This document shows, in pieces, positions 49,775 to 57,766 of a stretch of DNA of 64,000 nucleotides. The DNA lies in the NCBI RefSeq assembly GCF_004115745.1, contig NZ_QXIL01000005.1, forward strand, positions 62,001 to 126,000, read 5' to 3'. Under the pieces are notes generated by a model that was not told the DNA's origin, did no database searches, and worked only from the letters and a program-made list of their open reading frames with translations. The stretch's first letter is position 1. Every line of letters begins with the position of its first letter. The position numbers were made by a program, and so were the translations under genes. The DNA comes from Levilactobacillus suantsaii (lineage in GTDB: Bacteria; Bacillota; Bacilli; Lactobacillales; Lactobacillaceae).

Positions 49775-50335
49775 CTACTCAATCATGACCATATCATCAG
49801 GCCGCGTAAATGGTTGGTCCTGGTTGATGTGGTCGTAGAAGAGAATCCCGTGCAAATGATCGATTTCATGTTGGCATACGATGGCAGGATAGTTCTTTAA
49901 GCGAACTTGATGCTTTTCACCGTTGACGTCATAATAGCGCAATGTGATCCGGTCGTGGCGTGGCACGAAGCCTGGCACGTCTTTATCTACGGACAGGCAA
50001 CCTTCACCTTCGGTCAACGCACCATTTTGAACGGATTCCGAGATGATTACGGGATTAATGATGACGTCGGTGAAGGGCGATTTGCCACCTTCTTCAGCAG
50101 CCGGGACCAAGACGGAAGCCATCTTCTTGGAAACACCAACTTGTGGGGCGGCCAAGCCGACACCAGCTCGGAGGCCGTACTTCTTACATTGTTCTGGATC
50201 TTGGGAAACGACTAGGTATTCCATTAAGTCTTTAGCCAGTTGTTGGTCCGCTTCAGACAGGGGAAAGCTGACGTCGGCTGCTTCCTGGCGTAAAACAGGA
50301 TCCTCGTCACGGACGATATCTTTCATTAAAAACAA
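49775..50335 (-). CDS. def: Peptide deformylase
   Basis: Def is the metalloenzyme that removes the N-formyl group from new proteins. The three motifs are GVGLAAPQVG, EGCLSV and QHEIDHLHG, with the metal-binding Cys and two His all present. It is 186 residues in the likely form MFLMKDIVRDEDPVL, starting at TTG 50335. The TTG is eight bases after GGAGG, whereas the in-frame ATG at 50341 is only two bases from it. The neighbour order rnjA-rpoY-def-pdhA is common in Firmicutes. Confidence 0.94.
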   Translation of the reverse strand: MFLMKDIVRDEDPVLRQEAADVSFPLSEADQQLAKDLMEYLVVSQDPEQCKKYGLRAGVGLAAPQVGVSKKMASVLVPAAEEGGKSPFTDVIINPVIISESVQNGALTEGEGCLSVDKDVPGFVPRHDRITLRYYDVNGEKHQVRLKNYPAIVCQHEIDHLHGILFYDHINQDQPFTRPDDMVMIE

Positions 50336-55574: not shown

Positions 55575-55609
55575 AAAAGGGATTCGGGGCTAAAGCCGAA
55601 TCCCTTTTT
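55575..55609 (+). terminator. Terminator of the pdh operon
   Basis: AAAAGGGATTCGG and CCGAATCCCTTTT form a 13-bp stem with an 8-nt loop and T run. Confidence 0.93.
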
Positions 55610-55680: not shown

Positions 55681-55708
55681 TTGCTATCCAGGGGGCTTCC
55701 CCTATAAT
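55681..55708 (+). promoter_or_regulatory. Promoter of the LDH-like/UPF0223/IMPase operon
   Basis: TTGCTA (55681-55686) and a perfect TATAAT (55703-55708) with a 16-base spacer. Confidence 0.6.
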
Positions 55709-55751
55709 GATGGTATGACTTAATTTCAGAAATCCAAATGGAGGCTTGTCA

Positions 55752-56657
55752 ATGAAACCGACATTACTCATTCAAGGGGAGTTAACGCAGACCAATCAGT
55801 TTTTACATCAACTACTGATGGCGGATCTACCAATTGATTGCGTGATTTTACCGGAACACACGGACGATACGCCCCAGTACCAGGCGTTGGTAGTCGCGAG
55901 CGCATTGTGCCCGCAGCTGTCGATCCGGGTGGGGACCAATACCGATTATGCGCAGGCAAGTTGGCTGATTTTACTCGATCAAACGGTGACGGAACAGCCA
56001 CTGGTAACGCGAGTGGCCAATTTGCGGCGGGTAACGAACCGAATTTTGGAGAACGGATTTCAGGGGCAGTTAATCTTTGCAGGGGAACACGATGACTTAT
56101 TTACTTACTTTGCGTGGAAGTATTCGGGGGCAGCGCCACACCAAATCTTGGGCTTGGGGACTTACCCACTGACCCGCTTGTTGACTTGTCGGTTGGCCGA
56201 ACGGTTAGGCGTGGGACCACGGGCGATTCAAACTACCGTCATTGGTCGTTCAGCGACTCCCATTGCAGCGTGGAGTCGAACCTATGTTGGGCCAACGCCC
56301 ATTTTGATGTATCTGGCTAACGCCGATGCTAAATTTGGGGCGGATGACCTGGGAAAAATGGGAAGCTGGTTACAGCGGGAAGCTGCGGCGCCACAGACGA
56401 CACTACGGTTCATGGTGTTGATTCGCATCTTGCGGTCGGTCTTGATGGGTCATCCCGTGATCGTGCCCGTCGCGCACCCACAACCAGAAACGCCGACTTA
56501 CGCCACGGCGACCCCGGTGCTGGTCTCGGCTGACGGGTGGAAGCCGCTGCCGAAGTTAGCGTTGTCGGAAGACGAGCAGCAAGACTACGCTGCTTGTGTG
56601 GCCGCAATCCAGGATGACATTGGTCAGATTGAAGGCCAACAAACGGAGGAAAATTAA
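55752..56657 (+). CDS. Lactate dehydrogenase-like protein lacking catalytic residues
   Basis: The 301-residue protein aligns by eye with the L-lactate/2-hydroxyisocaproate dehydrogenase family in its middle: RVANLRRVTNRILENGFQG, then LFTYFAWKYSGAAPHQILGLGT and ERLGVGPRAIQTTVIG...AAWSRTYVG. However, the NAD glycine loop at the N-terminus is not recognisable (LLIQGELTQ). The substrate-binding Asp/Arg after GT are Leu/Leu (GTYPLTRLL), the NPVD motif reads EHDD, and the catalytic His motif GEHGD is GRSAT. It is therefore probably a pseudoenzyme. ATG 55752 has GGAGG seven bases upstream. It shares its last base with the UPF0223 start. Confidence 0.8.
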   Translation: MKPTLLIQGELTQTNQFLHQLLMADLPIDCVILPEHTDDTPQYQALVVASALCPQLSIRVGTNTDYAQASWLILLDQTVTEQPLVTRVANLRRVTNRILENGFQGQLIFAGEHDDLFTYFAWKYSGAAPHQILGLGTYPLTRLLTCRLAERLGVGPRAIQTTVIGRSATPIAAWSRTYVGPTPILMYLANADAKFGADDLGKMGSWLQREAAAPQTTLRFMVLIRILRSVLMGHPVIVPVAHPQPETPTYATATPVLVSADGWKPLPKLALSEDEQQDYAACVAAIQDDIGQIEGQQTEEN

Positions 56658-56956
56658 TGGCACAAGCAATGAATTACGAGTACCCCCTGCAACCGGACTG
56701 GTCAACGGCTGATATCATTAAGGTGACACAGCTGTACCAGGACGTGGAAGCTGCTTACGAACGGGGGAAAGGGGTGGCCGTGGCTGACTTACTAACGGCA
56801 TACCGGGACTTCCAGACGGTCGTCCCCCAGAAGTTTGAGGAAAAGCAACTTGACCGCGATTTTCAGGCGGTTTCAGGCTATAGTATTTACCGGACGATAC
56901 AGGCAGCACGCCAAGCCACGACGGCTACCATTAAAATGAAAGGATCACAAAAATGA
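56657..56956 (+). CDS. UPF0223 family protein
   Basis: The 99-residue soluble protein has the family features NYEYPLQPDWSTADIIKVTQLYQDVEAAYERG near the start and FEEKQLDRDFQAVSGYSIYRTIQAAR in the second half. It is predicted as an all-helical bundle. Function unknown (YktA in Bacillus, also near an inositol-monophosphatase gene). GGAGG lies upstream. The stop overlaps the next ATG by four bases (ATGA). Confidence 0.9.
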   Translation: MAQAMNYEYPLQPDWSTADIIKVTQLYQDVEAAYERGKGVAVADLLTAYRDFQTVVPQKFEEKQLDRDFQAVSGYSIYRTIQAARQATTATIKMKGSQK

Positions 56957-57747
56957 GTGACTTAAATTGGCAAGACTTGAGTGCCCAAGTGGTGGCACTT
57001 TTGCAACAATCCCGACAACGGGTATTGACCCAAATGCAACGGGCGTTGACCATCGACGAAAAGACCAGTCGGAAAGATTTGGTTACCAACGTGGATAAGG
57101 GGAACGAGCAATTCTTGATTCAAGGGATTCGGCAATTGGACCCGCAAGCCCAGGTTTTGGGTGAAGAGGGGTTTGGTGACCACGTGACGTCGACGACCGG
57201 TCGGCTTTGGATTGTGGATCCCATCGATGGAACGATGAATTTTGTGAAGCAACGGGATAACTTTGCCATGATGATTGGCATCTATCAGGATGGCGTGGGG
57301 CAACTCGGGTTTATCTATGACGTCATGAAGGATGTCTTATACCGGGGTGGGCCGCAATTAGGCGGTGTCTGGGCCAACGAGATGCAACTGACTGCCCCGG
57401 CTGACTTAGCCTTGAGCGACGGACTGATCGGCATGAGTTCACCGTTAGTGATTCACGATGTGGCTCACATGCAGGCCATCGTCCACGCCAGTGCGGGGAT
57501 GCGGATTTACGGCAGTGCCGGAATTGAAATGATTAATGTTATGGTGGGCAAGACTTTAGGGTACATTTCGCACCTGAAACCGTGGGACTTTGCCGCGGGG
57601 CAAATTCTGCTCAATACGCTGGGGGTTCAGATGTCGACTATTGACGGACAGCCGCTTGATATGCTATCATCTAATCTTGTACTAGTAGCGACAAAACAAG
57701 CGCAACGTGATATTCTCCAAATTGAAGAAGATGACGTCTCACTGTGA
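56953..57747 (+). CDS. Inositol monophosphatase family protein (YktC-like)
   Basis: This Mg-dependent sugar/inositol phosphatase family member has 264 residues. The metal-binding motifs LGEEGF (about 70-75) and WIVDPIDGTMNFV (about 86-98) are intact, and the C-terminal metal Asp is in LKPWDFAAGQILL (about 210-222). The physiological substrate in lactobacilli is uncertain. It overlaps UPF0223 by four bases. Its stop codon lies in the 5' arm of its own terminator. Confidence 0.9.
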   Translation: MSDLNWQDLSAQVVALLQQSRQRVLTQMQRALTIDEKTSRKDLVTNVDKGNEQFLIQGIRQLDPQAQVLGEEGFGDHVTSTTGRLWIVDPIDGTMNFVKQRDNFAMMIGIYQDGVGQLGFIYDVMKDVLYRGGPQLGGVWANEMQLTAPADLALSDGLIGMSSPLVIHDVAHMQAIVHASAGMRIYGSAGIEMINVMVGKTLGYISHLKPWDFAAGQILLNTLGVQMSTIDGQPLDMLSSNLVLVATKQAQRDILQIEEDDVSL

Positions 57748-57766
57748 CTTGGTCACAGTTTTTTTA
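57741..57766 (+). terminator. Terminator overlapping the end of the IMPase gene
   Basis: ACTGTGAC (57741-57748) pairs with GTCACAGT (57752-57759) around TTG, followed by eight T. The TGA stop at 57745-57747 is inside the stem. Confidence 0.88.

Follow-up and report, generated by a model that had tools for sequence, protein, structure and literature searches.

The window, the 64,000-nucleotide stretch of Levilactobacillus suantsaii DNA analyzed here, carries downstream of pdhD a gene for a 301-residue protein (positions 55752 to 56657, + strand) that we identify, from homology, predicted fold, residue alignment, conservation and dN/dS, as a pseudoenzyme with the fold of lactate dehydrogenase (LDH); we refer to it as pLDH. 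The gene starts with ATG at 55752, with TTG at 55746 as an alternative start, and its ribosome-binding site, GGAGG, can be read directly at 55740 to 55744 (+). Between pdhD and the gene lie, in this order, a predicted terminator of the pdh operon, found by folding and pattern search as a hairpin with a 13-bp stem and a U-tract (55575 to 55609, +), and a promoter, TTGCTA-N16-TATAAT (55681 to 55708, +). The hairpin has a folding energy of -20.6 kcal/mol (z -4.35) and none of 200 shuffles is as good; the pattern of hairpin plus U-tract matches once in the window and not at all in 100 shuffles, and the hairpin is absent from the list of a consensus terminator scan. Downstream follows a UPF0223 (YktA-like) gene (56657 to 56956, +; PF05256, E 1.2e-33), whose start codon opens on the final base of the pLDH stop codon, in line with the coupling of the two genes proposed in the initial annotation. 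Its end is overlapped by the start of an inositol-monophosphatase-family (IMPase) gene (56953 to 57747, +; PF00459, E 1.2e-44), and at the end of the latter the scan places a terminator-like hairpin (57741 to 57759, +), one of 6 terminator-like sites in the scanned region vs 2.7 expected. Because of the terminator after pdhD and the gene's own conserved promoter, the transcription unit in the window is likely to be pLDH-UPF0223-IMPase, as predicted from sequence, with IMPase as its third gene. No RNA family reached its gathering score between positions 50000 and 60000.

The count of promoter-like sites around the pLDH promoter (4 vs 2.1 expected) is not clearly above chance, so the promoter call rests on conservation across Levilactobacillus: in all 33 loci of this genus, TTG-N19-TATAAT is found 66 to 202 nt ahead of the pLDH start, which bears out the earlier suggestion that the gene has a promoter of its own. 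These 33 loci also share letters outside both hexamers, mostly TTGCTATCC-N7-TTCACTTATAAT, which may include an operator. A search for the extended motif that allowed up to two mismatches gave a single match per genome in 4/4 genomes, always upstream of pLDH; a control pattern gave 0 matches. Outside Levilactobacillus such a promoter is rare, with TTG-N18 to N21-TATAAT within 300 bases upstream in 7 of 57 pLDH loci.

At the level of sequence, pLDH is related to LDH far beyond chance, with scores that amount to less than one fifth of the curated cut-offs of two LDH families (NCBIfam NF000824, E 2.3e-16, 60 of 339 bits; TIGR01771, E 5.1e-16, 58.9 of 303.6 bits). It matches the L-LDH of PDB entry 3wsv at E 1e-15, and in Pfam it gives a sub-threshold hit to Ldh_1_C alone (PF02866, 18.7 of 22.6 bits). 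Elsewhere in the source genome, on other contigs, two more genes of the LDH family score above the Ldh_1_N cut-off. An AlphaFold2 model computed from the window protein and 44 relatives has a pLDDT of 93 and a pTM of 0.89, and its 50 best matches among solved structures in Foldseek are all LDHs (4m1q, TM 0.86). In a structural comparison the model superimposes on LDH 4m1q over 294 residues with a Z of 34.5 and an rmsd of 2.1 at 18% identity; ranked below 4m1q are LDHs and, lower down, some malate dehydrogenases. pLDH is thus confidently predicted to adopt the LDH/MDH fold over its whole chain, as the initial annotation had proposed from the letters of the gene.

The residues that make LDH an enzyme are a different matter. 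We use LDH residue numbers that we take to be the customary ones (Gly30, Gly33, Asp53, Arg109, Asn140, Asp168, Arg171 and His195). In the alignment to true LDHs, the first nucleotide-binding glycine of the window protein is kept (G9), Gly30 is replaced by Leu11, Gly33 by Thr14 and Asp53 by Pro34, and the position of Arg109 falls in a gap; Asn140 has become Glu112, Asp168 Leu140, Arg171 Leu143 and His195 Ser167, as had been claimed for the catalytic residues. To relate this to the family, we surveyed 90 distinct pLDHs (76 from Lactobacillaceae, 8 from Carnobacteriaceae and 6 from Listeriaceae) next to 19 true LDHs, which a script picked for G-x-G-x-x-G and N-P-x-D, so that their 19/19 at these motifs is by construction; this filter removed 7 of 20 class-level loci. 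Within the glycine motif, pLDHs keep the first glycine in 89/90 cases, the second (Gly30) in 2/90 and the third (Gly33) in none. His195 and Arg171 are both absent from all 90, in three families, so the substitutions are indeed common to the relatives; Arg109 and Asn140 are each present in two proteins, and Asp168 in ten (7 Carnobacteriaceae, 2 Listeriaceae and 1 Lactobacillaceae). Any single pLDH keeps at most one of Arg109, Asn140, Asp168, Arg171 and His195. Asp53 is kept in 9/90, including 4 of the 6 Listeriaceae proteins. Two Listeriaceae proteins (L112 and L114) have the Asp168 element (LDTA), with His195, Arg171 and the later glycines gone, perhaps an earlier stage of active-site loss. 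We infer that pLDH can no longer carry out LDH chemistry. In LDH, Arg171 and Arg109 bind the keto acid substrate; with both gone, it is unlikely that pLDH would bind a pyruvate-like ligand in the LDH manner.

Other residues have become fixed in their place. The family is marked by a Trp-Ser-Arg motif, found in the alignment of the 90 pLDHs and encoded in the window at 56271 to 56279 (+): Trp174 is present in 90/90, Ser175 in 88/90 and Arg176 in 88/90, and Arg176 is found in 0/19 true LDHs. Asp114 is present in at least 90% of 45 aligned Lactobacillaceae pLDHs. When the protein is divided into 15 segments of twenty residues, pLDH is more variable than LDH in all of them except residues 181-200 (entropy 2.04 vs 2.16, in a comparison with unequal set sizes and ten of the 19 LDH rows cut at the N-terminus). 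The newly conserved Arg176 and Asp114 could be explained if pLDH were a neofunctionalised enzyme or ligand-binding protein with a new site, for instance around these two residues, that has no need of UPF0223, and the enzyme-like constraint on the gene (a dN/dS of 0.029, see below) would fit as well. The nucleotide-binding half, however, is among the most variable parts of the protein (entropy 2.4-2.8 in the segments of residues 1-100, with only segment 201-220 higher), and the later glycines are lost; we therefore regard a new catalytic or binding site of this kind as unlikely, while giving it some weight.

Selection on the gene is strong. Over 21 close pairs, the dN/dS of pLDH has a median of 0.029 and ranges from 0.015 to 0.075; the values are approximate, as dS nears saturation in some pairs, and 34 of the 55 pairs were left out because their dS was at least 1.5 or could not be computed. 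The medians for the neighbors are 0.032 for IMPase (20 pairs), 0.038 for UPF0223 (17 pairs) and 0.012 for PdhD (11 pairs). pLDH is thus under strong purifying selection, about as tight as that on a working enzyme, and therefore probably does a job in the cell; going by constraint, this job would be a non-catalytic one. The loss of the catalytic residues, the large sequence distances from genus to genus (members are 19-35% identical to the window protein) and the absence of the gene from part of several genera might also be what one expects of a decaying pseudogene or a misalignment, but the gene is intact in 35/35 Levilactobacillus genomes, as the initial annotation had it for the window, its dN/dS is low throughout, and identical losses are seen in three families. 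Proteome data moreover include probable members from Lactiplantibacillus and Listeria, according to the accessible parts of two reports (PMC10927959, PMC7880126). Decay and misalignment are hence highly implausible, and we reject both. LDH homology, catalytic residues absent across relatives and purifying selection together make pseudoenzyme status well supported.

A single-sequence search found pLDH in 115 of 397 Lactobacillaceae genomes, in 9 of 40 genera, and a profile search found it in 117 at E 1e-50 or better, a cut chosen inside the gap between the last accepted match (2e-56) and the next best (2e-39). Groups in this family are represented by, among others, Lacticaseibacillus casei, Fructilactobacillus ixorae, Apilactobacillus apisilvae, Ligilactobacillus faecis and Lactobacillus sp. 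CBA3606, the last of which is probably a Lactiplantibacillus. The Fructilactobacillus group keeps the gene in 10/10 genomes sampled, though these measure only 1.2-1.5 Mb. Several genera carry it in part of their genomes, and it has therefore probably been lost several times. Outside Lactobacillaceae, pLDH occurs in Carnobacteriaceae (represented by Carnobacterium sp. 17-4) and Listeriaceae (represented by Listeria innocua). In a search of the order (295 genomes) the best matches from other families were weaker, at 2e-43 or worse, and four of them (L115-L118) are ordinary LDHs at other loci. At the level of the class (398 genomes) the profile cannot separate pLDH from LDH, because true LDHs score highly too (matches in 229 genomes reach E 1e-30 or lower); of 20 high-scoring matches that were checked, none adjoins UPF0223 or pdh genes. 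The order and class searches thus revealed no pLDH outside the three families, which is not proof of absence.

Could pLDH be a regulatory subunit that tunes an active LDH in mixed tetramers? The predicted fold is the same, and the search that found pLDH in 117 genomes gave one or more additional matches in every one of them. Such LDH-family matches are, however, found nearly everywhere (386/397 genomes), whether pLDH is present or not, and among the neighbors searched for, pLDH adjoins UPF0223 and not another LDH gene. A role as LDH subunit accordingly seems distinctly unlikely to us.

In a tree built from 44 of the 90 distinct pLDHs and 20 LDH rows, two of which represent a single gene, a branch supported at 100/99 has all LDHs on one side, with the caveats that the pLDHs form long branches and that the LDHs may appear uniform through constraint. 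With LDH as outgroup, Listeriaceae, Carnobacteriaceae and Lactobacillaceae branch off stepwise, a topology that fits a single origin and mainly vertical descent; the branch between pLDHs and LDHs agrees with the active site having been lost a single time, long ago. Arg176 and the common gene slot also favor this history. A single Carnobacteriaceae row, L105, is set apart from the rest in the tree.

The position of the gene behind pdhD had led to the proposal of a link to pyruvate dehydrogenase (PDH), possibly through sensing of a pyruvate-related ligand. pdhD does precede pLDH in Levilactobacillus and several other Lactobacillaceae genera, and pLDH follows pdhD in 8/8 Carnobacteriaceae and 6/6 Listeriaceae loci fetched. 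Some Listeriaceae loci, such as L110 (5357-5989), have ~0.6 kb between the two genes. A sensor of pyruvate or of PDH would also fit a proteome of Lactiplantibacillus paraplantarum, where lp_2150 (UniProt F9UQ89), a probable pLDH, is 1.6-fold up at high phosphate together with PdhA, PdhB and PdhC, going by the accessible part of the report, in which table rows are shifted (PMC10927959). In four genera, however, no pdh genes are seen upstream of pLDH within the 6 kb fetched, and 11 of 16 genomes from these genera keep pLDH and have no match to PDH E1-beta at E 1e-10 (Fructilactobacillus group 4/4, Apilactobacillus group 4/4, one further genus 3/4, Ligilactobacillus group 0/4). Arg171 is moreover missing from every pLDH and Arg109 from 88/90, and in the window the predicted terminator and pLDH's own promoter stand between pdhD and the gene. 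Given the 11 genomes and the terminator, the link to PDH finds no support as a general interpretation: a general dependence of pLDH on PDH is rejected, a pyruvate link as a rule is unlikely, and we consider it very unlikely that pLDH serves as a pyruvate or PDH sensor.

The constant neighbor of pLDH is UPF0223 instead. The two genes adjoin in 87/87 Lactobacillaceae loci fetched (86 judged by match ends and L092 by the end of the ORF; with the window these are 74 distinct pLDH proteins, several loci being one genome twice) and in 16/16 further loci, the 8 from Carnobacteriaceae and 6 from Listeriaceae among them. Spacing was measured in 86 of 90 loci; in 85 of these UPF0223 starts no more than 35 nt from the pLDH stop, and in 49 it starts at or before the pLDH end. 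All 117 Lactobacillaceae genomes with pLDH have UPF0223, compared with 233 of the 280 without pLDH, counts that cluster by genus and are not independent; UPF0223 is also found without pLDH in Bacillus subtilis and Lactococcus lactis. In 48 loci with all four proteins, residual evolutionary distances of pLDH and UPF0223 correlate with a partial r of 0.60 given TypA, compared with 0.50 for pLDH and IMPase and 0.24 for UPF0223 and IMPase. The two correlations that involve pLDH have equal permutation p values of 0.001, and rate covariation is hence not specific to UPF0223. Comparing 86 UPF0223 proteins that neighbor pLDH with 18 that do not, we found no column that separates them cleanly. Eighteen Lactobacillaceae loci have UPF0223 but give no pLDH match; pdhD lies upstream in 10 of them, and in 9 of these 10 it is 0.10-0.22 kb ahead of UPF0223. 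In the tenth (L126, 3204-4158) the slot between pdhD and UPF0223 is taken up by transposase-like sequence with two overlapping ORFs. Two genomes (G299 and G399) show two UPF0223 matches each, at unusually weak E-values; the gene may be split or duplicated there.

Since UPF0223 is so constant a neighbor, and going by position, spacing, co-occurrence and rate correlation, the data suggest that pLDH works with UPF0223. Our preferred reading, which we hold to have somewhat better than even chances of being right, is that pLDH is a pseudoenzyme and putative non-catalytic partner or regulator, made and working with UPF0223. The LDH active site would have disappeared a single time, ahead of the split between Listeriaceae, Carnobacteriaceae and Lactobacillaceae, leaving a protein incapable of LDH chemistry; this protein would be made together with UPF0223 and act with it, most likely as a scaffold or an allosteric regulator, with the region that begins at the Trp-Ser-Arg motif and ends near residue 200 as candidate surface for contacts or a ligand. 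A regulatory or scaffold role thus stays our best guess, putative as it is. In a wider and more tentative form, which we think possible yet would not count on, an LDH was converted once, in the common ancestor of the three families, into UPF0223's non-catalytic partner, and the pair would form a regulatory module of core cell physiology that persists even where a reduced genome has no PDH, and that responds to a signal other than NAD and lactate. Through its fixed link to UPF0223, pLDH gives a handle on that widespread family. As to the protein itself and its conservation, that is its fold, its residue losses and its relatives, the initial annotation was right, and both checks by which it could have been refuted, on the fold and on the catalytic residues of orthologues, turned out in its favor.

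LDH is a textbook enzyme, and in the literature searched (most subscription journals lie outside its coverage) we found no description of an LDH branch without catalytic residues that has been kept for long. We consider it well supported that pLDH is a new pseudoenzyme branch of this known family. With L-lactate dehydrogenase (TIGR01771, NF000824; structures 4m1q, 3wsv and 1ldn) it has in common the whole fold and the length, as well as the GF-G, FSG, G-GT, WS and C-terminal elements; it differs in that the family has no complete GxGxxG, scores far under the curated cut-offs, and has Arg176 where L-LDHs mostly have His. UPF0223 / YktA (PF05256; solved structure 2oy9), in turn, is the constant gene neighbor of pLDH, but a small protein of a separate family, present in many genomes without pLDH. 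We found no function for UPF0223 in the literature searched; in the accessible part of one study, B. subtilis YktA is entered as conserved and hypothetical, with a possible part in polyamine metabolism, in a co-evolution group tied to RNA metabolism (PMC3814617).

In the literature consulted, probable pLDHs go by the name of lactate or hydroxyisocaproate dehydrogenases, so that a dead enzyme may be taken for an active one when the metabolism of lactobacilli or Listeria is modeled or their proteomes are studied. By its position, presumably after the pdh genes, lmo1057 of Listeria monocytogenes is probably the Listeria member, the Listeriaceae loci fetched having pLDH after pdhD. In the accessible parts of the reports it is annotated only as L-lactate dehydrogenase, both in a biofilm proteome (Q8Y860; PMC7880126) and in a pathway table (PMC5750592). 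lp_2150 of Lactiplantibacillus plantarum is likewise a probable member, an orthology suggested by its accession, F9UQ89, which follows those of pdhA, pdhB and pdhC (F9UQ93-91) after a gap of a single accession that would be pdhD's; in the accessible part of its source it is annotated only as malate/L-lactate/L-2-hydroxyisocaproate dehydrogenase (PMC10927959).
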